The position numbers were made by a program, and so were the translations under genes. Under the pieces are notes generated by a model. The model saw only the letters and a program-made list of their open reading frames with translations, did not search any database and was not told the DNA's origin. DNA of 64,000 nt from a virus, in the IMG/VR virus record IMGVR_UViG_3300025030_000058, positions 1 through 64,000 of that record; one strand, 5' to 3'. Below are positions 8,753-61,283 of the stretch, piece by piece. Numbering within the stretch: position 1 is the first letter of the stretch; the number at the start of each line of letters is the position of its first letter.

Positions 8753-9051
8753 AACCCCTCCTTGGGCTGTTTTGCAATAGTCAGCCACCATTTGGCTTTC
8801 TTGACTAACATGCGAACGGTGCGACCGCGCACATATTTGAGCGTGATGGCCTGCGGGTCGTCCGGCGCGGCTTGGATATTGATGGCGCACTTGCCCGTCA
8901 CTTTGGAGTGCAGGCCGTAGCCGTTTTCCTCCAGCAGAGCCACGGCGGATAGAATGCTGGCCGACGTGTTGGCATACTTGATGAGTAAGCACGCCCGTTG
9001 CACGTCATGTTCCTCCATCAGGCACTTCGTTCGAGCTTGCCCGCGCGGCAT
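8749..9051 (-). CDS. Hypothetical protein
   Basis: 100 residues from the ATG at 9049-9051, which overlaps the QueE stop (TGATG); a longer reading inside QueE is unlikely. A helical N-terminal half (YANTSASILSAVALLEENGY) is followed by a beta part (KCAINIQ, AITLKYVRGR) and a basic C-terminus (VKKAKWWLTIAKQ). No family recognised. Coupled to GroES by ATGA. Confidence 0.55.
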   Translation of the reverse strand: MPRGQARTKCLMEEHDVQRACLLIKYANTSASILSAVALLEENGYGLHSKVTGKCAINIQAAPDDPQAITLKYVRGRTVRMLVKKAKWWLTIAKQPKEGL

Positions 9052-10667
9052 CAGGATACGATCTTGTCCGTGCCCCGGAGCACACGGATTCCCGGAGACC
9101 ACAGCAGACCGATGCGCCGCATGCGATCCATCATTTCATCAAAGGTATAACTGGTTCTGGAGGAGATAAAACAGAATTCCGGGCACGCCACCGTGGTTTT
9201 ATAGGAGCGCACGGCTTGGATGATTTCCTGCGCTTTCAGCACGTCCCCGTCATCCTGGGGGGAAAATAGCATGTCATCCCGTCCGCGCAAGGCCCGGACG
9301 TTGGATTCCAGCATTCTGTACCCAACGTCGGAACTGGGGAGTTTGTACTCCATCAAGACCCTGACATTATCATGGCGCAACAGTCCGAAGATTTCCACCG
9401 TTCCAGACGTGCGGACTTCAATATCTATCGGACGCCTGCCGAGAAGGCTAAGCATCTCCAATAACTCAGCGGACTGGAACAAGGGCTCCCCGCCGTTGAT
9501 ATGGAGCATGCTGGGCGATGGGAGTGCTGTGATCTCCTTGAACAGTTCGTCAACAGTCACATCCTTGCCGTCTTCCCCCAGGACTTTATCGCAGTATGAA
9601 CAATTATGCACCAGCAATCCGTTAGCAAAAAAATTACCTGTGCTCGTTTCTATATCCCACATTTCTCCGGTATAGCACTGTTCACCAACATGCAACCCTA
9701 CCTGTTCCAAAGCCTCTAATCCGGAAGGCCTAAATTTACGTTGAATAGCTGGATTAGCCCACATAAAAAATTTAAGGGAGTCTCTTACTTTATTAATCTG
9801 AATGCGGTATAAAACTTTTGGCTTCAACTTAGGAATGTCTTGAGTGTATAGAGCATTTGTGTATCCGAGATTATTTAGTCTTGAAGATACTTCTTGCATA
9901 AGATTTAAATCTTTTGTTTGTACCATCGTGATTCCGCAGTGCTTCGTCCAGCTTCCCTCGGCATCAAAAAATCCCGCTACCCACCCCCTGAAAAGTTCCC
10001 CTTTATCGAACTTCTTATTTCCAAGTAGAGATATAAAATTACGTTGCTTGGTATGAATTCGGTATAAAACCGTGTACTTTGATCCTTTGTTATACGGAGC
10101 AACGCTATATCTTATCTTAAAATTAAGTAGGCATGCCATAGCCACAAATCTATCCGCAAACTCCTTATCGACAGTATCCATGCTAAATTGTTTCGTGTTA
10201 AACCACCCATCTCCGTAGCATGCCCCGTTTATATACCCTAATGCATATGTTTTATTAAATTCACAGTTACAAGATGGGAACATTTTACCGGTACTTCCAT
10301 TACAGTTTCTTAACTCCGCGTAGGTCCCTCTGCGAGTAGAATAAATTTTATGCTTACCGCTTCCTATAATATTACCTGAAATAAAATCAAGACTGTAACC
10401 CTCTTTTATACCTGAAACCCAAACGTGCTGTACTAATTGACTACACAACATACTTCGTTTCTTCCTACCCTCCTTTGCCTTAACTCCTAATATCTCATCC
10501 CCGGGAATTAGCATAGAGATTTTCTTTTGGGTAAAATTACTCATTGTAACTAATGTGTCCGGATGAACACAATTTATATCGCACCCGTGAATGGAGAGAA
10601 TGCGCGCGGACCGGCCGACGTTCCGACCTGCCTGGATAATGCCGAAGCCTAAGTAGTCTATATTCAC
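9051..10667 (-). CDS. queE: 7-carboxy-7-deazaguanine synthase QueE, interrupted by an intein
   Basis: 538 residues from a GTG (10665-10667) that overlaps the upstream stop (GTGA). Residues 1-32 and 356-538 form a radical-SAM protein of the QueE type. Joining them gives GCDINCSYCDK, the CxxxCxxC motif that binds the 4Fe-4S cluster. HINGGEPLF follows, the usual GGEP element. Residues 33-355 are an intein (separate entry). After splicing the enzyme is 215 residues, normal for QueE. QueE turns 6-carboxytetrahydropterin into CDG, the precursor of preQ0. Phages use this path for 7-deazaguanine DNA modification or, by inhibiting cell division, host control. No QueD, QueC or DpdA partner is visible here. 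It lies between the capsid and GroES genes. Confidence 0.85.
   Translation of the reverse strand: MNIDYLGFGIIQAGRNVGRSARILSIHGCDINCVHPDTLVTMSNFTQKKISMLIPGDEILGVKAKEGRKKRSMLCSQLVQHVWVSGIKEGYSLDFISGNIIGSGKHKIYSTRRGTYAELRNCNGSTGKMFPSCNCEFNKTYALGYINGACYGDGWFNTKQFSMDTVDKEFADRFVAMACLLNFKIRYSVAPYNKGSKYTVLYRIHTKQRNFISLLGNKKFDKGELFRGWVAGFFDAEGSWTKHCGITMVQTKDLNLMQEVSSRLNNLGYTNALYTQDIPKLKPKVLYRIQINKVRDSLKFFMWANPAIQRKFRPSGLEALEQVGLHVGEQCYTGEMWDIETSTGNFFANGLLVHNCSYCDKVLGEDGKDVTVDELFKEITALPSPSMLHINGGEPLFQSAELLEMLSLLGRRPIDIEVRTSGTVEIFGLLRHDNVRVLMEYKLPSSDVGYRMLESNVRALRGRDDMLFSPQDDGDVLKAQEIIQAVRSYKTTVACPEFCFISSRTSYTFDEMMDRMRRIGLLWSPGIRVLRGTDKIVS
9603..10571 (-). mobile_element. Intein with LAGLIDADG homing endonuclease inside queE
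   Basis: 323 in-frame codons. The first residue is Cys (CVHPDTLV, a standard splicing block A) and GSGKHKI supplies the block B His. Two dodecapeptide motifs of a LAGLIDADG endonuclease follow: LGYINGACYGDG at intein residues 111-122 and LFRGWVAGFFDAEG at 193-206. The end is FFANGLLVHN followed by Cys, that is His-Asn plus Cys+1, as needed for splicing. It is inserted immediately before the second Cys of the QueE CxxxCxxC cluster motif. Base composition is clearly more A+T-rich than the flanking gene, a sign of separate origin. Confidence 0.9.
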
Positions 10668-11665
10668 GCTTGCACTCCGGCTATGATGGTTCCGTACGCG
10701 AAGGCCTTGCACAGAGCCGAACAACCATAGAAGGAAAAGGTTCCTTGGCAACAGGTGAAATCCGTGTTTATGTGTGGCATTGAAATATCCAGGAGATAGC
10801 CAGGAGCCCAAATGAAATTATGTGCCAGCAACCGTTCGTTATTCTCGGCTGCAAGCAGGATAAATGAATCATCATGAACACCATCCAAGGCGTAGACGGT
10901 GAAAGTCTTGTTACCCAAGGAAAGTATTCCCCGTGTTGAACGTTCTGTTTTTTCTAACAGAAAATCTGGAAGATGCTCGACGAAGGCAATTACGTTTTTC
11001 CCGCAGAGAAGCGTATCTGGGTAAACGGTTCGTGTTTTCTTGAGTACTTCGGAACACCCTGCAAAAAGCATAGCCGGAAAAGCTCTTACATTATGCTCAA
11101 ACCAGTCCTGAGCTACCGGCGGGGTTTTATCGTACAAAGGAAGTTCTATTACTACACCATTATCTCGCATAATATAGAAAAAGTATGCCTCGAAATCTTC
11201 AATAAGTTGTTGCGCGACTTCCCCAGGCGCTCTTGTCAGGAGATGCCGTATGCGCATCTTTCTAAGGAGCAGGCTGAGAGTGTGATGTGTGTCCAGCAGA
11301 GTTATTTCCGGTACGGTATCCGCGCTGCCCTCTTTAATTTCCACGCGACGGTATAGGAAGTCGCTTTTAATATGGTTTTGGCGCAGGATGGCGGGCTGAA
11401 TGGAAATGATATTCGGAAGGATAGTACGCTGGCAAAATTCCAAAATAGTGTCTCTCATCCACACGCTCATGCGCTGAAGGTCCTCCTTCCTTCTGACCTC
11501 ATCTACGCCTTCGGGAATAGGGACGGTTTGAACGTATTCCCAGTTGTCCAGAAGCGCGGACGCCAACAGACGCCGGTTCTCCTTTAACGGACTCACTACG
11601 TCGGCGTACTTGGTCAGGACTTCACGATAGAGGGACTCCAAAGGATGGCCTTGTATCTGGATCAT
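10664..11665 (-). CDS. Probable major capsid protein, T4 gp23-like (HK97 fold)
   Basis: 333 residues. An N-terminal helical arm contains LLASALLDNWEYVQ. It is followed by ILPNIISIQPAILR, which resembles the PNLIAxDxVxVQPM block of T4-like capsid proteins. The C-terminal part has the layout of the P and A domains: NVIAFVEHLPDFL, GNKTFTVYALDG, then FIWAPGYLLDI and YGTIIAG. Length is lower than T4 gp23 (521). Its position with GroES, portal and terminase supports a capsid role. The call rests on motif resemblance only. A different head protein is possible, since no other capsid candidate was seen. Confidence 0.55.
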   Translation of the reverse strand: MIQIQGHPLESLYREVLTKYADVVSPLKENRRLLASALLDNWEYVQTVPIPEGVDEVRRKEDLQRMSVWMRDTILEFCQRTILPNIISIQPAILRQNHIKSDFLYRRVEIKEGSADTVPEITLLDTHHTLSLLLRKMRIRHLLTRAPGEVAQQLIEDFEAYFFYIMRDNGVVIELPLYDKTPPVAQDWFEHNVRAFPAMLFAGCSEVLKKTRTVYPDTLLCGKNVIAFVEHLPDFLLEKTERSTRGILSLGNKTFTVYALDGVHDDSFILLAAENNERLLAHNFIWAPGYLLDISMPHINTDFTCCQGTFSFYGCSALCKAFAYGTIIAGVQA

Positions 11666-17553: not shown

Positions 17554-18417
17554 CTACTCCTTCGAGTCTTCGATGAAGGTTATCTTGCTCCGCTGGGAGA
17601 CCATTGGGTACTGGATGGGCGTCACAAGTTGATCCGCCAGTGCGCGCGGCTTTTGAATGCACAGCATCCGGGAGTTCACGCAGGTTCCACTGGCCTTGAA
17701 CGTCCCCTCCGGCAGTTCCTCGTCCACACGCACGGCATCCCCCACGCGCAACTCATTCAGCCACGCGCGGAAGGCTTGATACTTCTTCGCCGCGTTGAAC
17801 GTCCACGAGGGTGACGTGATCGCCACCAGGACACCGCCGGTGGAGAGTAGTGTGTAGGCGTGCTGGACGTGTGCAATGTCCTGTCCATCGGAGAATGGCG
17901 GGTTCATAATGATGCAATCGTAGAAAGCACGATGAGCTAAAAAGTCTTCCCCGGTGATGGCAACGCCGGGGATTTGCGACAGGGCCGCACGCATCTTCGG
18001 CTCCAGTTCACAAACAAAGACACGCGGGAAGCTCTTGTGTCTGCGGAAAATGGCGTGGACCAAGGCCCCTTTGCCTGCGCTGGGCTCCAACACGCGGTCC
18101 CCTTCTCTGATATTCGCCAACTCCACCATGCGGTCGGCCAGGTCATCTGGCGTCTCGTAGAACTGGAAGGTTGCTTTCTCGTCCACTACGGTTCCGCCGG
18201 ACAACGCTTCCTTCAACCGGTCCATAGAGTCCCCTTCCCCGACGTGGCCTTTGAACTTTTTACTCCACTTGAATCCGACGAGTTCCAAAACCTTGTTGGT
18301 CTTGACATAGAGGTCACGGGACAACTGGCCTTGGAGAACGAGCATGTTACCCATAAGCACTGCTTGCCGCAACACGGCTTCCACGTCAGGGGCGATGGTG
18401 ATGGATTTGATCTTCAT
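17554..18417 (-). CDS. N6-adenine DNA methyltransferase, TaqI-like
   Basis: 287 residues. A helical N-terminus of about 85 residues precedes the Rossmann methyltransferase fold. That fold has EPSAGKG (SAM-binding motif I) at residues 111-117 and NPPF (motif IV) at 172-175, followed by GGVLVAITSPSW. The NPPF/Y motif marks gamma-class amino-methyltransferases acting on adenine. No restriction enzyme is next to it, so it probably protects phage DNA from host restriction. A second methyltransferase is at 21543-23024. Confidence 0.8.
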   Translation of the reverse strand: MKIKSITIAPDVEAVLRQAVLMGNMLVLQGQLSRDLYVKTNKVLELVGFKWSKKFKGHVGEGDSMDRLKEALSGGTVVDEKATFQFYETPDDLADRMVELANIREGDRVLEPSAGKGALVHAIFRRHKSFPRVFVCELEPKMRAALSQIPGVAITGEDFLAHRAFYDCIIMNPPFSDGQDIAHVQHAYTLLSTGGVLVAITSPSWTFNAAKKYQAFRAWLNELRVGDAVRVDEELPEGTFKASGTCVNSRMLCIQKPRALADQLVTPIQYPMVSQRSKITFIEDSKE

Positions 18418-21542: not shown

Positions 21543-23024
21543 TCACTCCTCTTCTACAGGTGTTAATCTTACAGGCAATTTCTCGTTTGTCAAGTCAAAG
21601 TTTGGTAAGAGTCCAGCCATCGGGATATGCCGAGGCGCGTCCTTGCCCTTTCGGGGCTTGACGGCGCGCGGAGTCTTATTCAACGAGTCATCCAGGGCAA
21701 TGCGCCTGCTGGACAGTTCAACGTTGCCGGGGTGCAGGTCGATACCGATAAAGGACCGGCCATAGTGTTTGCACACGACGCCGACACTGCCGCTCCCGCA
21801 GAACGGGTCCAGCACAACGGCGGGGACTGGAGGCGCTTCACATGCGCATGTCGGCTTCCAGCAGGTTGTCTCGTATGCCATATATGCGCCCATGCGCACA
21901 TCATATTCGCCGCTTTGTACTTGCTCCGATCCAGCATGTTTCCCCACAGGTGCTTTTCCTGCTTTGCCGGATCCGGATAGGAACACTGTTTTCTTCCGGT
22001 ACTCGCGTTCCCAAGGCGTTCCGCATTGAGAACATATGCCATACTCACTCGTGGCTATCTGGATCATGGGTTCGATGAGCCGTAAGGGGAATACGGCGAA
22101 GTGATCCTGTGCGCCAAACTTCTTCCCGTTGAACGGAACGGTTGGAACGGACCACACTGTCCTCCGGTTGCGCTTGAAGCCTTCCCACGGAACAGACCTT
22201 CCGAGATGGCTACCTGGACGCCCCGCATCTTCACCAAAGCGGCGCTCTTTATTGCCGGACGCTGCAAGCCTAATGATTCCCGGTCCAACCGTCTGCATGT
22301 CTCTTCCTGAGCGGTTCGCCGGGCCTGACGGAGTAGAACGCTGGTGACCCTGGCCACGAAAGGCACTCTTGCCACCACGCGGACGGGAGCCCTTCTGTGG
22401 GGATTGTCCTGGCGCAGCGTACCCTTGGCCCGTCACGTCATGAGCGGATGCGGACACAGCGTCTTCCAATCCCGCCACGTAGTCATAAAAGTAGTTGGGC
22501 TTTTTAGACAAGAGAAAGATCGTCTCGTGATTGCATGTTGGTCTGTCCTTGACGGAAGATGGCATACAGTTTTCTTTCGTCCAGATTATGTCACGCCGCA
22601 AGTACCAGCCATCAGTTCTGAGCGCAAAGGCCAGCATCCAAGGCAGGCCAAGCATGTCCTTGGTTTTAATTCCCGGCAACTTTCCCGTCGGCTGACCGTA
22701 CGCCAGCCCACGCCCACTTTGACTCTTTTCCATTCCACCCCATATCTGTTTACCGCCCTTTCCCGTGCGACCACCACCGCAGTAAGCATCGCCCATCACA
22801 ATCCAGCACGTCCCACTATCGTGTAGAACTCGCCGAACCTCCCGAAAGACGGCTACCAAGTTAGCAACATACTCTTCCGGCAGGACTTCTTGCCCAATCT
22901 GGCCGGAGACTAAATAATCCCGCAACCCGAGATAGGGAGGAGACGTAACACAGCAACTTGCGAAATTATCGGGAAGTGTTCGGAGGACTTCCAGCGCATC
23001 ACCGCATAAGAGTGTTGTCTTCAT
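21543..23024 (-). CDS. DNA methyltransferase, N4-cytosine/N6-adenine beta class
   Basis: 493 residues. Motif IV TSPPY is at residues 27-31 near the N-terminus, and the SAM-binding motif DPFCGSGSVG is near the C-terminus with GIDLHPGNV after it. This circularly permuted order defines the beta class. TSPPY is most often linked to N4-cytosine. Between them lies a long variable, basic target-recognition region of about 200 residues, plus CSQCGTPW ... CWKPTCAC, which could bind zinc. No restriction partner is present. The ATG overlaps the stop of a 39-residue membrane peptide. Confidence 0.85.
   Translation of the reverse strand: MKTTLLCGDALEVLRTLPDNFASCCVTSPPYLGLRDYLVSGQIGQEVLPEEYVANLVAVFREVRRVLHDSGTCWIVMGDAYCGGGRTGKGGKQIWGGMEKSQSGRGLAYGQPTGKLPGIKTKDMLGLPWMLAFALRTDGWYLRRDIIWTKENCMPSSVKDRPTCNHETIFLLSKKPNYFYDYVAGLEDAVSASAHDVTGQGYAAPGQSPQKGSRPRGGKSAFRGQGHQRSTPSGPANRSGRDMQTVGPGIIRLAASGNKERRFGEDAGRPGSHLGRSVPWEGFKRNRRTVWSVPTVPFNGKKFGAQDHFAVFPLRLIEPMIQIATSEYGICSQCGTPWEREYRKKTVFLSGSGKAGKAPVGKHAGSEQVQSGEYDVRMGAYMAYETTCWKPTCACEAPPVPAVVLDPFCGSGSVGVVCKHYGRSFIGIDLHPGNVELSSRRIALDDSLNKTPRAVKPRKGKDAPRHIPMAGLLPNFDLTNEKLPVRLTPVEEE
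21566..21593 (-). promoter_or_regulatory. Sigma70-type promoter inside the methyltransferase 3' end
   Basis: TTGACA (21588-21593), 16-nt spacer, TAAGAT (21566-21571). Serves 21220-21540, which has GAGGAG before its ATG. Confidence 0.7.
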
Positions 23025-28351: not shown

Positions 28352-29041
28352 CTATCCTTTGGCCTTGGATGCCGAAGTTATCAACGCAGCATGGTAGGTA
28401 TCGGACGCCTTGAACCCCTCGCAGGCCAAATCCAAGAGGTCCTTCCACGCGCCATCACTAATGGCCAACCCGGCTGCATGTTCATTAGCTAGGATATGCG
28501 CTTGCACACACAGTGCTCGCAACCGGTCATCCAGTGACTTGATAAAGGATAGCAACTCTATCTCCCCGATAAACTGATTCCTGACCCCCTTCGATGGGTT
28601 CTCGTGCGTTGCGCAATAGGACATGGAAACAAGGGTGGTCCTATCGCGTCGGGTCACTTTGCACCCGCAGGCAAATTCAAAGATTGTGATGATCTCAGCA
28701 TCTTCTCCCAAGTGATTCCTGCGTACTTTCTTCAGTATCGCCTGAGCTTCCGTGTCAAAGTCCTCTGCCCACTGTTCCGCACCCTTGCCTCCTCCGTCAA
28801 TGATTTCACGCCATCTCTGGATAAAATCCAACATCTTCGGCGCGAGAACTTGCGACTTGGAGGGCACTTTAGTTTTCTTCGCCTCGTTCCCTGTTTGAGA
28901 GCTTCCCCCATTCAGATAATGCGCGTGTCGTTGTGCTTCTTCGGAAGACGCGCAATCCTTTACGGGATGCCACGTTCCGTCAGGAGAGTAAAACCCGACG
29001 GTATACAGGCCTACCTCGGATTGCAGAACGACGTAGGCCAT
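28352..29041 (-). CDS. Hypothetical protein with Cys pair
   Basis: 229 residues. The first 50 resemble a small beta domain followed by a helix (VGFYSPDGTWHPVKDCASSE), common in phage proteins that adjoin other domains. A lysine-rich linker follows. The middle holds FEFACGCKVTRR ... YCATHE, a possible zinc site. The C-terminal third is helical. Function unknown. Confidence 0.5.
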   Translation of the reverse strand: MAYVVLQSEVGLYTVGFYSPDGTWHPVKDCASSEEAQRHAHYLNGGSSQTGNEAKKTKVPSKSQVLAPKMLDFIQRWREIIDGGGKGAEQWAEDFDTEAQAILKKVRRNHLGEDAEIITIFEFACGCKVTRRDRTTLVSMSYCATHENPSKGVRNQFIGEIELLSFIKSLDDRLRALCVQAHILANEHAAGLAISDGAWKDLLDLACEGFKASDTYHAALITSASKAKG

Positions 29042-29541
29042 TAGCGTGCCCCGTCCTTTGGCGCAGACGGAGGCAGGTCTTTTGGAAAAGCTTCACCGCC
29101 CCTCGTCCGCCACAGCTTGGCGCGCAGGCCATCGCCGGTAAACAATATCCGGCCCAAGATGTCCTTGTACAGGAAGATGGCAGGCATGTCCGTACCTGTG
29201 GTGCTTTTCAAATTCTCCGTCAGTTTATCCCACGCCCAGGCCGGAAAATCCTTGGCGGTGAACAAGCGGTCCCGCGCAGGGTCCTTTCCAACCGAAAATT
29301 CCGTTGTCTGCGTGATGTGCATGGTGGCGCTGACGAGGATTGGCAGCCTGCACTTTACGCACGTTCCTTGTTTAGCGCCTTCACTGTTGCCGAGGGCGAG
29401 CTTTCCCTTGTACCAAAGCGTTGCACTATCCCCATCGTCACCGTACTCGTCGAGTACAAAATCGTCGCCGGAGAAGAACTCCGTAACCGGGATGGGCTTC
29501 CTGCATGAGGGGCAAGGGTAGGTTTTCTTTTTGGTTGACAT
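29041..29541 (-). CDS. Zinc-ribbon protein
   Basis: 166 residues from the ATG at 29539-29541 after GGAGG. KTYPCPSCRKPI at the start and CVKCRLPI at about residue 62 form a two-knuckle zinc ribbon around an acidic loop (FVLDEYGDDGD). The rest is mixed alpha/beta with a basic end. Possibly nucleic-acid binding. Confidence 0.55.
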   Translation of the reverse strand: MSTKKKTYPCPSCRKPIPVTEFFSGDDFVLDEYGDDGDSATLWYKGKLALGNSEGAKQGTCVKCRLPILVSATMHITQTTEFSVGKDPARDRLFTAKDFPAWAWDKLTENLKSTTGTDMPAIFLYKDILGRILFTGDGLRAKLWRTRGGEAFPKDLPPSAPKDGAR

Positions 29542-29551
29542 GATAGCCTCC

Positions 29552-29782
29552 TTAGTACAGCATCCGGACGGACAGCGACCGTGCCCAACCCTGCATGGTG
29601 GTGGCGATCCACACCTGCCCAAGATCGTTGGAGTACGCCCAGATTGTGCCCGTCAACCGCACGGGTACGCGCACACCGGCCGCGAGGAGTTTCTTCTCAC
29701 ACCAGACCGGCAGATCCTCCCGGCGGTACAAGTGCTCCTGCTCGCAGATTTGATCGAGGGTCATTTTCGTCGTTCCGTTCAT
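29552..29782 (-). CDS. Hypothetical small protein
   Basis: 76 residues with AAGGAGG five bases before the ATG, and its own promoter at 29812-29840. LTGTIWAYSNDLGQVWIATT suggests a beta hairpin; the N-terminus is helical (MTLDQICEQEHLY). No family recognised. Confidence 0.6.
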   Translation of the reverse strand: MNGTTKMTLDQICEQEHLYRREDLPVWCEKKLLAAGVRVPVRLTGTIWAYSNDLGQVWIATTMQGWARSLSVRMLY

Positions 29783-51970: not shown

Positions 51971-52291
51971 TCAGTCTTCGCCGGTCTCGTTCACGTCCTC
52001 CGCTTCCGCCGTTCCCCGGATGAAGTCATTGAGCCGTCGCCCGATCTTGCAGGTCACGACACGATGCTCGGGAACCGTCAACGGGGAACCATCCACGGGG
52101 TTCCGGTAATTCCGTTCCTTGACGATCTTGGTGCCAAAAGTCGCCAACCCGCGAATGACCACGACCTCATCCCGATTCAGCGATTCCCGAATCGTCCGGA
52201 TGAAGACGTTCACCGCCTCCAGGGCTTGCTTCTGGGAGAGGGGCAACTGCTGCTCAAGGGCGTGCGCCAGTTCGTGCTTCCGCGTGGTCAT
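51971..52291 (-). CDS. HU/IHF-like DNA-binding protein (early operon)
   Basis: 106 residues. LAHALEQQLPLSQKQALEAV, then VVVIRGLATFGTKIVKERN, with NPVDGSPLTVPEHRVV as the DNA-binding arm and a final helix GRRLNDFI, follows the HU/IHF family in order. The acidic tail (EAEDVNETGED) is unusual. It probably compacts or bends phage DNA early in infection. It differs clearly from the HU-like protein in the head operon. Confidence 0.8.
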   Translation of the reverse strand: MTTRKHELAHALEQQLPLSQKQALEAVNVFIRTIRESLNRDEVVVIRGLATFGTKIVKERNYRNPVDGSPLTVPEHRVVTCKIGRRLNDFIRGTAEAEDVNETGED

Positions 52292-53390: not shown

Positions 53391-53412
53391 GGGGGCTGAT
53401 GGTTTAGCCCCC
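53391..53412 (-). terminator. Hairpin at the end of the structural operon
   Basis: Perfect 7-bp stem GGGGGCT/AGCCCCC with an 8-nt loop, 39 bases after the last structural gene. The following sequence on the minus strand is ACTTTG, a poor T-run, so termination efficiency is uncertain. Confidence 0.6.
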
Positions 53413-53450: not shown

Positions 53451-53990
53451 TTACGAGGAGAGTTTTCCAACCAGATTGGCAATGTACCTTTCGATGCGGA
53501 GGAGGTCCATTTTGTCCAAGGAACCATCCATTCGGGCACGCACGATATCACCAACGGAGGTGACTAAGGATTGGACTTCCGGCGAGGATAGCCCCATGCG
53601 TTTCAGCACAGTGGTAAACACCTGATCCATGCGGTCCAGATCATCCGCGTGGTCAAACGCCTCCGATTCCTTGACAGTGTGTATCTTGGCAACTTGGCTG
53701 GCGTGGTAGGCTTCCAGGATCTTGCGGACGGGGCTATCGGCCATGAGACTTTCCTCCTGTGCTGTGGCGTCGTACTGAATGAACTCATTCTCATCCGGTC
53801 CCAGATAGAGAATGATCTTAGCGGGCTCGTGGTCAGTCTGATCCGCATGCTGGACATTCTTGGCGATTGCGGCCAGGCGCGGCGGTGTGGAACCGGACAC
53901 GCTATGCGCCCATTCTACCGGTTGCATCTTCTGTGCCTTAATGATGGCAAGGGCGCGTTGGGGATCAATAGCCGTGGTGGAATAGCCCAT
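53451..53990 (-). CDS. Hypothetical head-region protein
   Basis: 179 residues. The N-terminal half is a small beta domain (KIILYLGPDENEFIQYD). Residues 89-94 (RKILEA) fit the Ile/Leu-x-Glu|Ala prohead-protease rule. A helical C-terminal half follows with a repeated pattern (DRMDQVFTTVLKRMG, DKMDLLRIERYIAN). If cut there, the helical domain would be released into the head. Last gene before the hairpin at 53391. No family recognised. Confidence 0.55.
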   Translation of the reverse strand: MGYSTTAIDPQRALAIIKAQKMQPVEWAHSVSGSTPPRLAAIAKNVQHADQTDHEPAKIILYLGPDENEFIQYDATAQEESLMADSPVRKILEAYHASQVAKIHTVKESEAFDHADDLDRMDQVFTTVLKRMGLSSPEVQSLVTSVGDIVRARMDGSLDKMDLLRIERYIANLVGKLSS

Positions 53991-54000
53991 GAGTTTCTCC

Positions 54001-54855
54001 TTAGAAGGTCAGCGGCTTCATCTTAACAACCGCCACCGTGAATTGATTCAACGCTGCATCATTGCTTGGAGAAGCATCTTTTAGGAAGCTATAGAGCTTG
54101 CTTGGATCTACGTTGTACTGCCGCATCCAGCCCTCGATGCGATCCGCGCGCATGGCCAATCGGCGGGCCAGCAGCTTAGCTACTGCCGTCGTCTTATCCC
54201 ATGCGCCCGGAGCGTCTTCACTCTCCAGCAGGGCGTCAACGATGACTGAGACCGATTCCAGCTTCAAATGTCGTTTGCCAGGGTACACGGCATCTGGGGG
54301 TGTATTGCGCTGTGCGGAAACATCCACGTGGACGCCAAGATCCTTGGAGATGGACTCGGCCGCCTTTTTGGCCAGCGCCAGGTCCTTGTACGTGAACTCC
54401 CACACGGGATCGGTTGAGACACGAACGTGGATAGTGCCTCCCGTAGGCGGAACAGCGGCCAAGGCGCTCTGGAGCGCATCCGGCATCATCCCGGCCTTGG
54501 ATAGCCCCTCACGGGTCAGCAGAGCGTCTGTGAGAGTGGCTATGCGTAAAATTGACTCCGTGCTGGAACCGGGGGCCTTGTTCAAGAACGCCTCAATGCC
54601 TTTATATGTGTTGGGGATTTTCAATTCCTTGGTCGTCCACACAAAGGCCTTGCTATTGATGTTGACATGGCCTAAGCCTTTCACTACCACCACGTCTCGA
54701 ATTTTTGAGGTAGTGGCTTCTGCCTGTTTTCGTGCTCCGGCCGGACCTTGTTCAGGGTCAAATCCATAGTCGGCGGGGTACTTGAGAATCGCCTTCTCCA
54801 AGTTCTTAACATACAGGGAGAAGAACTGATCTACTTGCTCAGGAACGTACGGCAT
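54001..54855 (-). CDS. Head-region protein with two LLxE-like motifs
   Basis: 284 residues from the ATG at 54853-54855; the longer reading runs inside the upstream gene. Motif copies TLTDALLTREG (108-117) and SVIVDALLESED (203-214) divide the chain into three parts. The middle part (GGTIHVRVSTDPVWEFTYKD) is beta-rich and the last is helical (RRLAMRADRIEGWMRQ). The pattern suggests processing during head maturation, not yet shown. Confidence 0.55.
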   Translation of the reverse strand: MPYVPEQVDQFFSLYVKNLEKAILKYPADYGFDPEQGPAGARKQAEATTSKIRDVVVVKGLGHVNINSKAFVWTTKELKIPNTYKGIEAFLNKAPGSSTESILRIATLTDALLTREGLSKAGMMPDALQSALAAVPPTGGTIHVRVSTDPVWEFTYKDLALAKKAAESISKDLGVHVDVSAQRNTPPDAVYPGKRHLKLESVSVIVDALLESEDAPGAWDKTTAVAKLLARRLAMRADRIEGWMRQYNVDPSKLYSFLKDASPSNDAALNQFTVAVVKMKPLTF

Positions 54856-54862
54856 ATAGGGC

Positions 54863-55138
54863 CTACTTTTCCTCACCGGACAGAATGCGTTCGGCATGGG
54901 CCTTGGCCTCTTTGGCGTTGGCCTCTCCGTACAGCCCGGCGATTTCTCCGATTTTCAGTCCGCCTGCCATTTGATAAATGATGCCTTCGATGTTCGTCTT
55001 GAACAAAATATCGTTCAACGAGGCACCGGGACGAGTCTTGGTAACTACATAGAACTCTACCGTGGGCAGCCCTTTGCCGGGGAAGCGGTTTTCTTTGAGT
55101 AGGCCGTCCACGAGAGAACGGACAGGGAACTTTTTCAT
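54863..55138 (-). CDS. Small head-region protein with N-terminal LLKE motif
   Basis: 91 residues. SLVDGLLKE at residues 8-16 sits at the N-terminus, like T4 capsid-targeting sequences. The rest is alpha/beta (TVEFYVVTKTRPGASLNDIL) with a helical charged end. A preceding GGAATCC gives only a moderate SD. Confidence 0.55.
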   Translation of the reverse strand: MKKFPVRSLVDGLLKENRFPGKGLPTVEFYVVTKTRPGASLNDILFKTNIEGIIYQMAGGLKIGEIAGLYGEANAKEAKAHAERILSGEEK

Positions 55139-55148
55139 TGTGGATTCC

Positions 55149-55688
55149 TTACAGCACGATCACGCGGTAGCTTTCGCCACCGGCTTGGCCACGCAGGTAG
55201 ATGCTGGTCCGGCTGATCCAGTCCATCTCAAACGGCGGATCCCCGAGTTCCAGGCGACCCGCGACGGCCAGACCATCCCAGGACCATTCAATCCAGTTGG
55301 CCCCGTCGTCGTTGTATAGCACAACCTTACGTGCTGTGAAGCCGAAAGCCTGCTGGACAAAGGCGTTGGTCAGCGCCGTACCCGCCTGGTTCTCATAATA
55401 GGCATTGGAAGACCGGGCCATAGCCGTGGCGAGGAGCGCCAACGTGTCTTCCGTGGCTGGGTTGACCGCCGCAGCGGCGATATTCTTCAAGCCAACGGGG
55501 TCAGGCGTCAGGACCGCCGCCGTCTGGATTTCCTCAAAGGAGAACCGTTCCACGCCACTCCAATTGGCCCAGAACGTTGTGTCAGCCTGCGCCAAAGCCA
55601 CGGCGGCAAGGCTGGTGGCGGCCGCGTAGATTTTCCCGCCAATGACTCCACCATCCGGGTGATGACCGATGATGAGGTAATTTGCCAT
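55149..55688 (-). CDS. Probable virion protein
   Basis: 179 residues; the only gene of the 54.0-60.4 kb block without the LLxE motif. Ala-rich helical middle (LKNIAAAAVNPATEDTLALL) and a beta-rich end (KVVLYNDDGANWIEWSWDG, DWISRTSIYLRGQ), like small tail-completion or decoration proteins. No family assigned. Confidence 0.6.
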   Translation of the reverse strand: MANYLIIGHHPDGGVIGGKIYAAATSLAAVALAQADTTFWANWSGVERFSFEEIQTAAVLTPDPVGLKNIAAAAVNPATEDTLALLATAMARSSNAYYENQAGTALTNAFVQQAFGFTARKVVLYNDDGANWIEWSWDGLAVAGRLELGDPPFEMDWISRTSIYLRGQAGGESYRVIVL

Positions 55689-55697
55689 GCTGTGCTC

Positions 55698-56480
55698 CTA
55701 CTTTCCCATCGGGGGCACGCCCGCGAGGTCTTCCAACGCCCCACCACGCGGGACCAGCTCATTGATGACTCGCACGGGTAGCGGCTCATCCGGGTCCATT
55801 CCCTTCGGCAAGGGCTTGGTGGCGGCCTTGATCTTGGCGACGACGGCGGGCGTGAAAATGTCTTTGCCCTTGTAGGTGTACCCCGCTTGGATCTGTCGGG
55901 CTTGGATGGCCAGCGCCGCGTTGTAGCTCACGCGCACGCCGGATGTAATTGCGTCCTCAGACAGAAGATCATCTACTGCGGCGCTTGGAGAAACTGATTC
56001 CACTGCCCCCTGCTTGCCCGTGAACACGGCCGCGTCGCCCATGAGTTTGACGATAGCAGACAACTCATCCGCGAATCCCGAGACCAGAGAGGCCTCGATT
56101 TTCCACGTCCTGGCGTCAATCTCCGGCATCTTCTGCGTGAGGATGTCGGAAGCCCTCTCGATTTGTCGGGACACTTCACCCAGGCGATGGATGGCCTCGT
56201 AGCGCACGTCCTTATACTCCAGTTCCTTCAACAGTCTATCCAGCAGAGGTCGAATAGGCATAGAAACTCCTTCTTGAATGCGTAATCTTCCAGCGTGCAG
56301 TGACTTTTCCAGTTCCGCCGGAGTCATTTCAGACATCCGGTTATCCTGCGCGCGCTTCAAATGAATTGCCACAGCATTATACTGTCGAGTTTCAACTTCG
56401 GTTACCATAAATATCTGACCGTCTACGGGTTCTCCTGGAGCGTGCAGCACGTACTTAGTCCCAACAGGAGGTATCTTCAC
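55698..56480 (-). CDS. Head-region protein with two LLxE motifs
   Basis: 260 residues from a GTG at 56478-56480 that overlaps the upstream TGA (GTGA). The N-terminal 70 residues are a beta domain (GTKYVLHAPGEP, FMVTEVETRQYNAVAIHL). PLLDRLLKE (78-86) and VDDLLSE (169-175) follow, with a helical part between them and an Ala/Pro-rich end. The layout is that of a precursor cut into two or three products. Confidence 0.55.
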   Translation of the reverse strand: MKIPPVGTKYVLHAPGEPVDGQIFMVTEVETRQYNAVAIHLKRAQDNRMSEMTPAELEKSLHAGRLRIQEGVSMPIRPLLDRLLKELEYKDVRYEAIHRLGEVSRQIERASDILTQKMPEIDARTWKIEASLVSGFADELSAIVKLMGDAAVFTGKQGAVESVSPSAAVDDLLSEDAITSGVRVSYNAALAIQARQIQAGYTYKGKDIFTPAVVAKIKAATKPLPKGMDPDEPLPVRVINELVPRGGALEDLAGVPPMGK

Positions 56481-57007
56481 GCTTTGCCCTTCGTCCCGGC
56501 CACAAGATCTTCCAGCCATTTTGTGTCTCGGACCAGGCGTTGAATATCCTCGTGCGCCTCTTTCTCAGCGGACTCCTTGGAACTGCAATCGTCCCGTGTG
56601 AATAACTCTTTGCCTTTCCAGTACACCGTAAAAGACCACTCTCGCGCACCAAAAGCGTCAGGGTTCTTGAAGACTTTGAACTTCAAGTCCTTCTCCAAGT
56701 ACTCTTTCAACAAAAGGGTATTGACAACATGGGCAATGGATTCTTCTTGGCCCAGGACTTCGATACCAAGGCCAAGACTTTCCAGCTTGCGCAACATCGC
56801 CTCGTACTCAGTCTCAGTGATGGAACCTCCAAACCCAAGGGATCGCATGATGGCTTGGTCCGCGAGGGTATTCCCATAGAGTTTCCCGTGAAGTCTCTTT
56901 AGCCGTACGGCTCCAAAGTCCCATACAGATGAAACATCCACGCCGCCCAAACGCTGGGCAGGCTCAGCTTCTAAAAGCATGGCGTCAACAAGACTTCTGC
57001 GAGTCAC
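56477..57007 (-). CDS. Head-region protein with N-terminal LLEA motif
   Basis: 176 residues. SLVDAMLLEA at residues 5-14 fits Leu-x-Glu|Ala exactly. The body includes REWSFTVYWKGKELF, KESAEKEAHEDIQRLV, which resembles a small modifying domain fused in many phage proteins. Coupled to both neighbours. Confidence 0.55.
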   Translation of the reverse strand: MTRRSLVDAMLLEAEPAQRLGGVDVSSVWDFGAVRLKRLHGKLYGNTLADQAIMRSLGFGGSITETEYEAMLRKLESLGLGIEVLGQEESIAHVVNTLLLKEYLEKDLKFKVFKNPDAFGAREWSFTVYWKGKELFTRDDCSSKESAEKEAHEDIQRLVRDTKWLEDLVAGTKGKA

Positions 57008-57312
57008 ACCGTCCCCTTCACGAAACGAACAATTGCGGTTTTCTCCAGTTCATTCAATTTTGTTTGAACCTTAAACAGGTCAGACTTAATTGTGTGAAAC
57101 TCCACCGCCAGCTTGGCAACGGCTTCAGGGTCCTTCAACTTGACATCCCCGGCTTTGGCCTTTGCCTGGAAATCCAATAAGTTCTGGAGCGCGTATTCGA
57201 TAGTGTCTTGGACGGCGGAGATATCCTTGTTGGCCTTCTGGGCAAATGACGCTGAGCTGCCGCTCATGAAACCTTCGGTCAACAATCGGTCCGTGAGTCG
57301 CTGAATGTCCAT
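57004..57312 (-). CDS. Small helical head-region protein with LLTEG motif
   Basis: 102 residues. RLTDRLLTEG at residues 5-14 is a perfect T4-type prohead cleavage site (Leu-x-Glu|Gly). The remainder is an almost continuous helix (SAVQDTIEYALQNLLDFQ, LFKVQTKLNELEK), as expected of an internal scaffold peptide. Confidence 0.6.
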   Translation of the reverse strand: MDIQRLTDRLLTEGFMSGSSASFAQKANKDISAVQDTIEYALQNLLDFQAKAKAGDVKLKDPEAVAKLAVEFHTIKSDLFKVQTKLNELEKTAIVRFVKGTV

Positions 57313-57322
57313 GACATTCTCC

Positions 57323-58696
57323 TTAGCCCGAGGTGACCGTGAAATCCGGGTTGGTTTGCGCCGCCGCGTCTAAGATTGCTTTGACCACCACGTCATAGGG
57401 TTTCTGCGCCGTCTTGCAGAACCCAAACTTGTCCCCTTCACGCTGGATTGTACACGTCTCGTACCCATCGGGGTTGGCTCCATTGAACATCACAACCTTG
57501 TCGTCTACGACAGGTTTCCCAGTTCCGTTTCCACCGGCAAGGACAATCTTCTTCCGCGCGGCGGCTTGGATAATCTGCTTGGCCTTGGCCGTGAATGCCG
57601 TCCACTGCTCATCTGTGAAGCCGTCAGGGTTCTCCCAATAGCGAGAAAATCCTTCCAGTAGAAGGTGATCTACCAAACGAGGCAAAGACACCTTCTGGGA
57701 TTCCATGGGAGAAACCGCCGTGGGCCGATAGCGGGCAAATATCTGGAAGTACCCTCCGTTCCCAGAGTGTTGCCCAAGGGGTTTTCCATCATAGCTGGAG
57801 AATCCAAGGGCGTTGAGCTTTTCAGCGGCGTCAAGCGTCCAGTTCTCGTACCCCTCCAACCCCTTTCCACGGACCTTGTTGTAAATCCGCCAGGTGCCCC
57901 GCATGCTTCCCTTGTCAATGTACATCGGCACCGCATTGGGGAAGCCATGGGACCGTAGAAAAGCCTGCATGCGCTTGTTATGGTCAGCCTGCACGCCGAT
58001 GGATGCCATTTCTGGGAGTAACCGGTCCACAAGGGCAGATAGGCTAAACACGCGAACCTTTGTATGAGATTCCAAGGGGTTCTTAGTAGGCAATTCAGAT
58101 ATTTGAACTTTATGCCCGTCGTCAGCGAATAGCGTTGCTTCCGAATTCAGTTCCATGTACCCGCGAATCTCCGGGGTCAGGCGTACAATCGGAAGACCCA
58201 TTTGACCATGCGAATGTGCCGAGATATAGAGCTTTCGGAACACCCAATCTGGGAGATCGCCCGCAGGATAGGAGACTTCATTCTTTATACCCTCCAAAAG
58301 ATATGCTGTCGTTCCGTCCAGGCCGGTCAGGCGCTCATCAAGGCAGTCCTTAAGTGTCATCCCCCCGACAAGCCCCGCCGAACGATCCTGGGGCATTTCT
58401 GAGGGCGTTTTCACACTTTCCACCTTGACAATCCCTAAAACATCAAGCGGAATGGGCTCGTTAGGGTCTAAGAAGCTGAATTTTACACCCTGCTGGTTCG
58501 CAAGGGCGGTTACGCGCTCCGGTTCCAACGCCAGGACGGCCATTTTTCCGCCGACGGTGAACCAGCGCACGGGCATTTGCTGGAGAAGGATGGCCTCCGA
58601 GAACGTCCGAAGTTGATCCGATCCAGGTTGGAGGGCCGGAAACACCACTGCTCGGCTGGTCTTATTGGAGGTCGGGTTCGGCGTACTGGAGGCCAT
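57323..58696 (-). CDS. Large head-region protein, possible polyprotein
   Basis: 457 residues. SALVDRLLPEM (220-230) and RLVDHLLLEG (340-349) split it into about 229, 119 and 109 residues; AYLLEG at 131-136 is another possible site. Segment 1 contains FTVGGKMAVLALEPERV and IYISAH-like strands (KLYISAHSHGQ). Segment 2 has GTWRIYNKVRGKGLEGYENW and GYFQIFARYRP. Segment 3 has WTAFTAKAKQIIQAAARKK. Each segment could fold on its own. No known enzyme motif was recognised. Confidence 0.55.
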   Translation of the reverse strand: MASSTPNPTSNKTSRAVVFPALQPGSDQLRTFSEAILLQQMPVRWFTVGGKMAVLALEPERVTALANQQGVKFSFLDPNEPIPLDVLGIVKVESVKTPSEMPQDRSAGLVGGMTLKDCLDERLTGLDGTTAYLLEGIKNEVSYPAGDLPDWVFRKLYISAHSHGQMGLPIVRLTPEIRGYMELNSEATLFADDGHKVQISELPTKNPLESHTKVRVFSLSALVDRLLPEMASIGVQADHNKRMQAFLRSHGFPNAVPMYIDKGSMRGTWRIYNKVRGKGLEGYENWTLDAAEKLNALGFSSYDGKPLGQHSGNGGYFQIFARYRPTAVSPMESQKVSLPRLVDHLLLEGFSRYWENPDGFTDEQWTAFTAKAKQIIQAAARKKIVLAGGNGTGKPVVDDKVVMFNGANPDGYETCTIQREGDKFGFCKTAQKPYDVVVKAILDAAAQTNPDFTVTSG

Positions 58697-58703
58697 TGAG
58701 AAC

Positions 58704-58949
58704 CTACTGAGCCAACGAATTGACTAGAGCTTGAATCTTTGCCGTTCCAGCCGGGGTCAACGTGTTTCTTCCCGTCATGATGATCAAGGCTTTGACAATG
58801 TTAAGAACACGCTCTTTAACCACTGGAGGCGTTTCCTTGAAGGAGGAAAACTTGGAAGAAAGCGCGGAGACGGCTGCGTCGGCAATCTTATACTCTTGTC
58901 CAGATTCTTCGGAAAGCAACTTATCAACGGCTTCGGCGATATTGACCAT
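58704..58949 (-). CDS. Small helical head-region protein with LLSE motif
   Basis: 81 residues. AEAVDKLLSEESG at residues 5-17. The rest is helical (AAVSALSSKFSSFKE, RVLNIVKALIIMTG). Similar size and design to 58959-59240 and 57004-57312, so probably one of a set of internal head peptides. Confidence 0.55.
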   Translation of the reverse strand: MVNIAEAVDKLLSEESGQEYKIADAAVSALSSKFSSFKETPPVVKERVLNIVKALIIMTGRNTLTPAGTAKIQALVNSLAQ

Positions 58950-58958
58950 TATGTCCTC

Positions 58959-59240
58959 CTACTTTGCGGCGCTAATATGCGCGTCGTCCAGCATCGTTAC
59001 AATCTGTGTGACCACGTCCGTGCGCAAACCGCCTGTGCCCGCGCCGACGATGAGCCTGTAGATGATATCGGCCACAGGACCCACCAGCGCGGCGCGGTCT
59101 GACGACAGGTTCATAGACAGGGTTTTAGCCACGTCGCCAGCTACCCTATTGGCGTCGTCAACGGCGCGGTCGTGCTTCTTCTGGAGGTCGTTGTCCTGCT
59201 CCAGAAGTGCGTCGAGGCGGGCACGGAAAGTATGTGTCAC
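58959..59240 (-). CDS. Small helical head-region protein with ALLEQ motif
   Basis: 93 residues. RLDALLEQ at residues 8-15 is a variant of the shared motif (Leu-Leu-Glu). A charged helix and a C-terminal part with VADIIYRLIVGAGTGG follow. Start ATG overlaps the stop of 59237-59881. Confidence 0.5.
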   Translation of the reverse strand: MTHTFRARLDALLEQDNDLQKKHDRAVDDANRVAGDVAKTLSMNLSSDRAALVGPVADIIYRLIVGAGTGGLRTDVVTQIVTMLDDAHISAAK

Positions 59241-59881
59241 TCGTCCTCCGGCAGCATAATCGTCGCGGTTGGAGCGTCAGTGTCCCCAGGACCGATGATG
59301 GCCAAGAGTTTGACAGTGACGTGCTTTTTCCCCTTGGCGAAGATCACGGGATAGGTCATGCGCGACCCGCTGGTGCGCTTGGCGTAGACGGTAAACATAT
59401 ACACCACGTCCCACAGTCTTCCTTGGAGGTCTTGGCCGTACTTCTTATCCTCAGCGCTGGGTTCAATCCATTTGGTGAATAGATTCCGCGTGACTGCCGT
59501 TGGGAACTTGATTCCGGCTTCCTTGGCGATCTTACTCACGTCCACCAGTTCCCCATCTTCTAATGCCTGCGCGCGGGAGTAGCTGGAAATGACATCGCCG
59601 AAGGAGCTATCTTCTTTCAGAAGCTGGTCAACGAGCGAGGCCGGTTTCCGGGCAGACTCCAACGGCTTAAATACTCCCTTATTGGAGAGGGCAAGATTAT
59701 GTTTTTTTGCTGCTGCAAATACCTTCGGGGCGGATTCATCGGACACAACCAGCGTACCCTCGCGGCTGCTGATGTATCCATCCCACGCGAACGTATTGAG
59801 TGCTCGCAGGAATTCCTTCCACTCGGGACTTCCAAGAAGACTTCCACCATTCGTATCTAAGACATACTTGCGATAGGCCAT
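59237..59881 (-). CDS. DUF6573-like domain behind a cleavage-type motif
   Basis: 214 residues. The N-terminal 80 residues form a small alpha/beta domain (EFLRALNTFAWDGYISSREG, KVFAAAKKHNLAL). SLVDQLLKE lies at 82-90. Directly after it, residues 94-214 match what I recall of the DUF6573 pattern: FGDVISSYSRAQALEDGELV, AGIKFPTAVTRNLF. The mature domain would thus start right behind the motif, which supports a processing site. The role of DUF6573 proteins is unknown. Confidence 0.6.
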   Translation of the reverse strand: MAYRKYVLDTNGGSLLGSPEWKEFLRALNTFAWDGYISSREGTLVVSDESAPKVFAAAKKHNLALSNKGVFKPLESARKPASLVDQLLKEDSSFGDVISSYSRAQALEDGELVDVSKIAKEAGIKFPTAVTRNLFTKWIEPSAEDKKYGQDLQGRLWDVVYMFTVYAKRTSGSRMTYPVIFAKGKKHVTVKLLAIIGPGDTDAPTATIMLPEDE

Positions 59882-59895
59882 GCCGTCCCTCGTCG

Positions 59896-59934
59896 TTAGT
59901 TCTCGGCCAACAGGTTCAAGGCCATGGTCTTCAT
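59896..59934 (-). CDS. 12-codon frame, tentative
   Basis: ATG at 59932-59934 one base after the upstream TAA, ending TAA at 59896-59898. It reads MKTMALNLLAEN, with LLAE recalling the shared motif. It fills a 54-base gap. Too short to judge; could be a leader or chance. Confidence 0.2.
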   Translation of the reverse strand: MKTMALNLLAEN

Positions 59935-59935
59935 C

Positions 59936-60394
59936 TTACAGGTCTAGGAAAGCGTCCCATTGGACGGGGCTATAGTTGTCATTGAATAGCCTGGACATAG
60001 GCGCACCAGGGTCACTCCGCTGATACTTGGGGACAAAATCCCATGCCCAACTGGTGATCTTCTCCGGGCGATCCAGCATCCGCAAGTACCAACTGACAAA
60101 CTCGTCAACGGTAATGGTGGTGGACTTGATGGAGGACACTGGCTTGGGAAGAGCCTTGACCAAGGCGTGAATCGTGGCCGCGTGACGACCAATGAATCCC
60201 ATGCCGAGTTCCTTGGCTTGGGCCTCGATCTCAGGAGTTACTTCCTGGCCCTTTGGCTTCAAGGCGTACATCTGCTTGAGCGTCTTCCACCCGTCCCGCG
60301 CCATGGCCAGGGCCTTCGTCCGAAGATCATCCGGCAACCGCGCAGCGGCGGATTCCTCCGTAAGCAACCGATCAACGACCTGAGCGACGTTCAT
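59936..60394 (-). CDS. Head-region protein with N-terminal LLTE motif
   Basis: 152 residues. QVVDRLLTEES at residues 5-15 right at the N-terminus. The body is helical and basic first (RTKALAMARDGWKTLKQMY), then has a Trp-rich end (FVSWYLRMLDRPEKITSWAW). First gene of the block after the endolysin. No family recognised. Confidence 0.55.
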   Translation of the reverse strand: MNVAQVVDRLLTEESAAARLPDDLRTKALAMARDGWKTLKQMYALKPKGQEVTPEIEAQAKELGMGFIGRHAATIHALVKALPKPVSSIKSTTITVDEFVSWYLRMLDRPEKITSWAWDFVPKYQRSDPGAPMSRLFNDNYSPVQWDAFLDL

Positions 60395-60406: not shown

Positions 60407-60895
60407 CTACACTTGCCGCGCGTATTGAAAATGTTGCCCGTCGGGGCGACGCCATGCGCCCCCCCACACCCATCCCAGATCAGTAAACGCTGTTACCAAG
60501 GCATCCGGCATCTCGGGCTTCTTTCCCAGGGGGTTTGAGACGCAGCAGAAGTCCAGTGCCATCCCAAAACTGTGAACCGACAGTTTACTGGCGTATCCCC
60601 GCTTGGTGCGGTACATATACGCTCCACCGAAGTCCTCCAACAGACTCCACAGTCCGTTCGTGTACAGAACCATAAAGGTATCCGTTACCACGTCTTGAAT
60701 GTACTTATGCACCCACACCTGTGTAGCCTTGGTCTTGGGATCCCACGCTAGGGGAATAGGAGCTAAGAACGGGACGCGAACGAGGTTATGCGCCTCCCAA
60801 TTGCGCCTGTGCTCCATGTCCTCCGGGGGCTGACTGCACACGCGGGTCAACCCCTCGTAGCCGACCGGAACATCCGGCCGACGCGGGTCCTCCAT
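60407..60895 (-). CDS. Endolysin, M15 family peptidase
   Basis: 162 residues from the ATG at 60893-60895. LSVHSFGMALDF gives zinc ligands His108 and Asp115; DLGWVWGG and PDGQHFQY give the third ligand His155. This is the M15 (VanY/L-alanyl-D-glutamate peptidase) pattern, SxHxxGxAxD ... W-G ... D-x-HF. It cuts peptidoglycan stem peptides. There is no cell-wall-binding domain or signal peptide, so export needs a holin; the membrane protein at 61280-61537 is a candidate. Confidence 0.85.
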   Translation of the reverse strand: MEDPRRPDVPVGYEGLTRVCSQPPEDMEHRRNWEAHNLVRVPFLAPIPLAWDPKTKATQVWVHKYIQDVVTDTFMVLYTNGLWSLLEDFGGAYMYRTKRGYASKLSVHSFGMALDFCCVSNPLGKKPEMPDALVTAFTDLGWVWGGAWRRPDGQHFQYARQV

Positions 60896-60896
60896 G

Positions 60897-61283
60897 TCAC
60901 TTGCCCTGCCAAACGAGACAGATGTTGGGTTCGCCAGGCTTCTGCGTCCAGTCCACGAGGTTGAAATACGTGTGGAGCTTGACCACACGGTACTCTTCAC
61001 CGCACGACTTGGTGCCCGGTTGGTAGTACCGGCACGTGGCGCATTTCTGATCGTTGGGGTCCGTGGCTTCGGTCAAGGCGTTGAGACGTTTTAGGGCCTC
61101 GTCAAACTTGCTCATGAGAGCCTCCTGCTTAGGGTTGCGCTGCCACTCGCGCACCGCCGATACCGCCTCAGCGATAATGGCCGCGCGCGTGGATTTTCTA
61201 TCGTTGCCCATTTTCTCCTGGCAATATTCCAGTTCTGTAATCGCTTTTTGCAATGCCAGGACAAGACGGTCAATAGGCTTCAT
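60897..61283 (-). CDS. Hypothetical protein with two possible starts
   Basis: 128 residues from the ATG at 61281-61283 (GGAGG six bases upstream, ATGA overlap). The N-terminal half is a charged helix. The C-terminal half has CATCRYYQPGTKSCGEEYR, a Cys triplet likely to bind metal. An in-frame Met (MSKFDEALKRLN) has a perfect GGAGG five bases upstream and would give a 66-residue protein holding just the Cys domain. Located between holin-like and endolysin genes. Confidence 0.6.
   Translation of the reverse strand: MKPIDRLVLALQKAITELEYCQEKMGNDRKSTRAAIIAEAVSAVREWQRNPKQEALMSKFDEALKRLNALTEATDPNDQKCATCRYYQPGTKSCGEEYRVVKLHTYFNLVDWTQKPGEPNICLVWQGK

Follow-up and report, generated by a model that had tools for sequence, protein, structure and literature searches.

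A repeated LVDxLLxE motif as the probable capsid-targeting and processing tag of an uncultured T4-type phage

Several mutually unrelated proteins of phage T4 (IPI, IPII, IPIII and Alt) carry a short hydrophobic tag, MKTYxEFIxE, that is cut by the gp21 protease. The first ten residues of the IPIII tag suffice; positions 4 and 7 serve targeting, positions 8 and 10 serve processing, and a change at position 10 blocks cutting with targeting kept (PMC9026906). The known packaged proteins of T4 block host restriction enzymes (PMC12373910). The subject of this analysis is a block of 12 genes (positions 53451-60394) in a window made up of bases 1-64000 of the 97,296-bp virus record IMGVR_UViG_3300025030_000058. 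Proteins of this block share a motif, L-V-D-x-L-L-x-E, that is very probably the counterpart, in this phage, of the T4 capsid-targeting and processing tag. The two have the spacing of the key residues and the (L/I)-x-E ending in common, and both genomes encode a gp21-type protease. Unlike the T4 tag, the present one reads LVDxLLxE, stands on about twice as many proteins, is concentrated in a single continuous gene block downstream of the lysis gene, and also occurs inside proteins, where a Glu-Ser dipeptide lies upstream of it.

Other described systems share single features with this locus. The ejection proteins of the giant phages SPN3US and phiKZ are cut after x-x-E by a gp21 relative (gp245/gp175), as is proposed here, and their N-terminal propeptides can exceed 100 residues (PMC5694885); the site differs, however (A-x-E or S-x-E), and no portable tag repeated within one protein is described there. 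DarB of phage P1 is comparable in that an N-terminal segment suffices for capsid entry (PMC9024508), but its signal is 30 residues long and belongs to a single large protein, and both phage and protease are unrelated. Polyvalent proteins, which occur in both phages and plasmids, join several unrelated payload domains in one protein and are predicted to be injected (Iyer et al. 2017; PMC5512222). For these, built-in peptidase domains or persistence of the whole protein have been suggested, whereas here the joints carry a putative head protease site.

The motif is found in 8 of the 12 genes of the block, as 10 in-register copies together with looser variants. (The genes with in-register copies are 54863, 55698, 56477, 57004, 57323, 58704, 59237 and 59936; genes are referred to below by these numbers.) An earlier, sequence-only reading of this DNA had listed copies in about ten consecutive genes, and every copy that it listed was found in its frame. 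The run is less regular than that reading supposed: gene 54001 has two copies, each with one extra residue before the Glu (as has the second copy of 56477), 58959 has a loose variant only, and 53451 and 55149 have no copy. The list also missed a ninth tagged protein, the product of gene 2956-3171/3198 near the portal gene, which opens MPSLVEELLKE and is a candidate for a small prohead-core protein. Gene 55698 probably starts at 56261 (MPIRPLLDRLLKE), which would make its first tag N-terminal. The copies, with the associated Glu-Ser dipeptides and one payload domain, are as follows.

3139-3162 (-): LVEELLKE, N-terminal (MPSLVEELLKE), gene 2956-3171/3198
54217-54243 (-): variant IVDALLESE, one extra residue before Glu, internal, gene 54001-54855/54897
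54258-54253 (-): Glu-Ser upstream of IVDALLESE
54508-54534 (-): variant LTDALLTRE, one extra residue, internal, gene 54001-54855/54897
54558-54553 (-): Glu-Ser upstream of LTDALLTRE
55091-55114 (-): LVDGLLKE, N-terminal, gene 54863-55138
55956-55979 (-): AVDDLLSE, internal, gene 55698-56261
56000-55995 (-): Glu-Ser upstream of AVDDLLSE
56223-56246 (-): LLDRLLKE, N-terminal if gene 55698 starts at 56261
56702-56728 (-): weak second tag VVNTLLLKE, extra residue, internal, gene 56477-57007
56743-56738 (-): Glu-Ser upstream of VVNTLLLKE
56969-56992 (-): LVDAMLLE, N-terminal from a GTG start, gene 56477-57007
57274-57297 (-): LTDRLLTE, N-terminal, gene 57004-57312
57653-57676 (-): LVDHLLLE, internal, residues 341-348, gene 57323-58696
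57698-57703 (-): Glu-Ser upstream of LVDHLLLE, candidate second cut
58010-58033 (-): LVDRLLPE, internal, residues 222-229, gene 57323-58696; Met comes next
58072-58067 (-): Glu-Ser upstream of LVDRLLPE
58908-58931 (-): AVDKLLSE, N-terminal, gene 58704-58949
59240-59611 (-): DUF6573 payload domain, residues 91-214, gene 59237-59881
59612-59635 (-): LVDQLLKE, internal, residues 83-90, gene 59237-59881
59654-59659 (-): Glu-Ser upstream of LVDQLLKE
60356-60379 (-): VVDRLLTE, N-terminal, gene 59936-60394

The pattern VD.LL.E occurs 7 times in the block (2,295 amino acids) and in none of the other 118 predicted proteins (25,650 amino acids), where composition shuffling predicts 0.00 and 0.07 occurrences, respectively; the wider pattern [LVIA]D.[LM]L.E occurs 9 times in the block and not at all in the other proteins. 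The rarity of the motif elsewhere, which the sequence-only reading had left to be checked, is thus borne out. The whole-proteome motif search that it had proposed, run unsupervised on all 129 proteins, returned the LVDxLLxE motif as the best of 9 residues, with a score of 259; two shuffled proteomes scored 237 and 246, a gap that is indicative only, since the shuffle runs had fewer seeds. (A first search with BLOSUM seeds and a motif search confined to N-termini were uninformative on this genome.) An origin of the motif in chance or composition is ruled out by the shuffles and the unsupervised search.

Codon choice varies between copies, and this rules out repeats at the DNA level. All-against-all BLASTP of the tagged proteins aligns them over the motif only, which bears out the claim that they are otherwise unrelated and rules out whole-protein paralogy; differing codons, with little shared beyond the motif, also argue against recent DNA duplication. 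A descent of all these proteins from one small ancestor, worn down until the motif is left as a remnant without a role, would be in keeping with the compact block of adjoining small genes and with the position of the motif near the N-terminus in seven proteins. We nevertheless regard it as most improbable: similarity outside the motif is absent, two of the payloads belong to unrelated families with free-standing homologues (below), and the keeping of the motif while the rest changed implies selection.

The motif forms an amphipathic helix. When its Glu is set as P1 (the residue before the cut), positions 4, 7, 8 and 10 of the T4 tag correspond to P7, P4, P3 and P1, at which the copies have V or L (T in one copy), L (M once), L and E, respectively. 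All 10 in-register block copies, and LVEELLKE, end in (L/I)-x-E. This match in register with the IPIII tag is the strongest tie to a known mechanism. The protease that would be required is encoded at 88145-89677 of the genome (L003:9146-10678) and is of the gp21 type (S77; PF03420 5e-9, phrog_207 5.7e-30); its His (ELDHP) and Ser (GVSSR) regions are conserved with T4 and five relatives. Its C-terminal part is long and acidic, and similar phage proteins are annotated as protease plus scaffold, which suggests that this part is a fused scaffold. A candidate cut site in the capsid protein, INNLEE/D (the slash marking the cut), fits (L/I)-x-E as well, and candidate sites such as LINE/A and LLRE/A lie at about the same place in capsid proteins of relatives.

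These features bear on an alternative in which the motif is a docking helix only, holding proteins uncut in the prohead core or in another phage structure. The amphipathic character of the motif, which is helical also in the structural model of the 59237 protein, would suit such a role, and the position-10 change in T4 does separate targeting from cutting (PMC9026906). Docking alone is nonetheless unlikely: it does not account for the conservation of the cutting residues P3 and P1 beyond those needed for targeting, or for the coincidence, in two payload families, of the end of the tag with a native protein start.

The first of these families is DUF6573. Residues 91-214 of the 59237 protein match it (PF20213, 2.6e-23), the domain beginning right behind the tag Glu. 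On plasmids, many of which are predicted to be conjugative, DUF6573 is also found as a free-standing protein; in the best plasmid match (Cytobacillus), Met1 aligns with tag residue Glu90, and the starts of other homologues lie no more than a few residues from this point. Other viral DUF6573 proteins (L143-L153) have no such tag, and the MIAE-like start of L143 was set aside, its contig being without a match to this phage's capsid protein. The second family is found in the 57323 protein, which consists of three or more segments, one of them represented by free-standing homologues. Its tag LVDHLLLE is followed by GFSRYW..., matching proteins that stand alone in two phages and on three plasmids. 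These homologues of module 3 begin MG(Y/H)xxY(W/F), and in a multiple alignment Met1 of all five falls at Glu348; pairwise alignments of Big4, MAL1 and Paenibacillus place residue 2 opposite Gly349, and those of the Streptomyces and Thermus homologues begin further in. With the homologue Met at the tag Glu in both families, a cut after Glu would restore the native N-terminus. That the motif behaves as a portable tag, as the sequence-only reading had it, is upheld by this junction, which coincides precisely with the start codon in two payload families.

A model of the 59237 protein (36 DUF6573 homologues) has confident domains at residues 1-71 and 100-214 and a weak linker at 72-99; the tag is a short helix (83-89) inside this flexible linker between two folded domains. 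Fold searches gave no match with E below 0.001, and the top solved-structure matches, all weaker than this, suggest that the N-terminal domain is ferredoxin-like. The single-sequence model of the 57323 protein is poor (pLDDT 40), and no relative of that protein was found in viral contigs. Its residues 126-199 resemble the untagged proteins of 29041-29541 and 29552-29782 (pairwise E 6e-4 and 3e-4), and a further resemblance (7e-5) links its residues 38-88 to the tail-region gene product of 74273-74617; payload domains may thus come in both tagged and untagged form. For five other block proteins no relative was found in phage or plasmid records, and PADLOC and NCBIfam scans returned nothing of note.

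The tag lies near the N-terminus (within about 10-20 residues) in seven proteins (2956, 54863, 55698, 56477, 57004, 58704 and 59936). About half of the copies (those inside 55698, 57323, 59237 and 54001 lie away from the N-terminus) are not explained by N-terminal targeting alone. A Glu-Ser dipeptide stands at most 17 residues upstream in 7 of 7 internal copies (three looser ones counted), where the next commonest dipeptide reaches 3 of 7; the background frequency of Glu-Ser is 5.7% of 17-residue windows in the proteome and 12.8% in the block itself. The segments from this Ser to the tag Glu are 13-20 residues long, about the length of an N-terminal tag. Possibly, then, Glu-Ser is a second cut, and these proteins are chains of payloads. 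That injected cargo is made as polyproteins, with tags between Glu-Ser and LLxE, and that T4-type phages have lineage 'dialects' of such tags, we hold to be slightly less probable than not; the two-cut version of the chained form, taken by itself, is about an even bet. As far as the literature searched shows, the internal chained form of the tag is new.

All genes of interest are on the minus strand. The endolysin gene (60407-61000) sits 12 bases upstream of the tagged block, beyond which come small genes and tail genes; within the block, genes are separated by gaps of at most 12 bases or overlap by 4 bases, with the exception of one 54-base gap. The head genes are distant.

4361-5836 (-): T4-type portal gene
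53391-53412 (-): stem-loop of 7 pairs (6 G-C) immediately past the final gene of the block, a consensus match only

The genes of the gp23-type capsid protein (86707-88107) and the protease lie at 86.7-89.7 kb of the genome. The stem-loop is possibly the end of the late gene run; with endolysin and tail genes upstream on the same strand, the block closes this late (tail-lysis) run. The assignment of these genes to the head region, made in the sequence-only reading, does not stand, the block following lysis and tail genes far from portal, capsid protein and protease; the protease and targeting part of the same proposal, which draws on a T4-type protease with its active-site residues, the (L/I)-x-E site and the T4 register, is retained. 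Location also bears on the possibility that the motif is a binding site for a different phage or host partner, such as a host protease adaptor, a polymerase or a membrane protein, and is unconnected with the head. The distance from the head genes would suit this, as would payloads without known function and the general commonness of short helical docking motifs. Late operon position, the T4-type protease in the genome, the T4 register match, the tag copy beside the portal and the junctions at Glu speak against it, and we rate it as quite unlikely, below docking alone.

The phage itself is an uncultured, deep-branching T4 relative with a genome of 97,296 bp; a 154-base near-identical repeat at both ends of the record indicates that this genome is probably complete and circularly permuted. 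A search of the annotated phage collection with the first 25 kb returned no near relative. The 32-kb contig MGZO01000005.1 (L154, L234) is from a nearly identical phage (99.5% identity over 6 kb) and is binned with a Hydrogenophilales bacterium genome, which is a weak host hint or a misbinning; the L154 copy stops inside the tagged block and so provides almost no variation data. Elsewhere in the window, DNA-binding proteins of one family (phrog_379) are encoded beside the portal (4033-4359) and at 51971-52291. A radical-SAM (QueE-like) protein (9051-10811, minus strand) contains a LAGLIDADG domain (PF14528, 5.1e-10) and an intein-like junction, GLLVHN/CSYC, at the radical-SAM cysteines, making an intein probable. 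DNA methyltransferase genes lie at 21543-23024 and 17554-18417 (N6_N4_Mtase 1.2e-36; weaker Eco57I-like match).

The targeting-site pattern, (L/I)-x-E, was also counted in the first 22 residues of the proteins of T4 and six T4-type contigs (the counts are approximate, resting on a simple pattern and predicted gene starts). In T4 the count is 15 (4.9 expected), among them two MKTYQEFIAE proteins and the start of gp24. Contigs G010 (15 against 3.0), G011 (16 against 3.6) and G015 (6 against 0.5) are enriched, and G022 weakly so. Candidate tags of these lineages, likewise ending in (L/I)-x-E, are the shared N-termini MKIIITESQ in several proteins of G010 (L081), MKLTKxxLxxIIKE and (MKLLM)ESWRKYLNE in several of G011 (L084), and MI(K/L)LTDL(I/L)xE in G015. 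The differences between lineages suggest that phages of this kind probably have, as a rule, tags specific to their lineage. The prohead protease of G022 starts LLIDTLLFE, which was dropped as independent support because 44 protease starts show it to be one form of a conserved protease N-terminus (LLVDxxPFE, LLIETxLFE).

The reading of the motif as a targeting and processing tag is favored by its confinement to one block and one gene near the portal, by conservation at the protein level with free codon choice, and by the co-occurrence in one genome of an S77 protease, a gp23 capsid protein and a T4 portal. Cleavage after the Glu is supported by the Met/Glu junctions, the position of the tag in a modelled linker and the upstream Glu-Ser. 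Several observations weigh on the other side. N-terminal (L/I)-x-E enrichment is weak in this genome (6, with 2.6 expected; p=0.06), a result of the many internal copies and of two N-terminal copies that the pattern or the gene caller overlooked; G013 and G019 show no significant enrichment. The 54001 variants and the second 56477 copy are out of register, the block is not beside the head genes, and the Glu-Ser site, recognised only post hoc, is without L/I at P3.

In the mechanism envisaged, the amphipathic helix LVDxLL would bind the prohead core, bringing tagged proteins into the prohead; the core partner would probably be the acidic C-terminal part of this phage's gp21-type protease. The protease would cut after the Glu of LLxE (a site supported by the module boundaries), freeing a payload with its native N-terminus. 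Where tags are internal, a further cut may occur at the upstream Glu-Ser; a long protein would then be split into several payloads and the tag would drop out as a peptide of 13-20 residues. By analogy with T4, payloads would remain with the DNA and pass into the host during infection (injection with the DNA, proposed in the sequence-only reading, is plausible), probably disarming defences or redirecting the cell.

Head-packaged proteins are hard to recognise because they have no sequence in common. A tag held in common allows the cargo of an uncultured phage to be listed from its sequence, predicts exact mature N-termini, and names testable candidate anti-defence proteins, among them DUF6573, which is also plasmid-borne (no paper on it was found in the literature searched). 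Should the internal tags be confirmed, they would represent a novel route by which a single gene supplies several cargo proteins and, if the reading is true, the cargo sets of other T4-type phages would be readable through each lineage's own tag.

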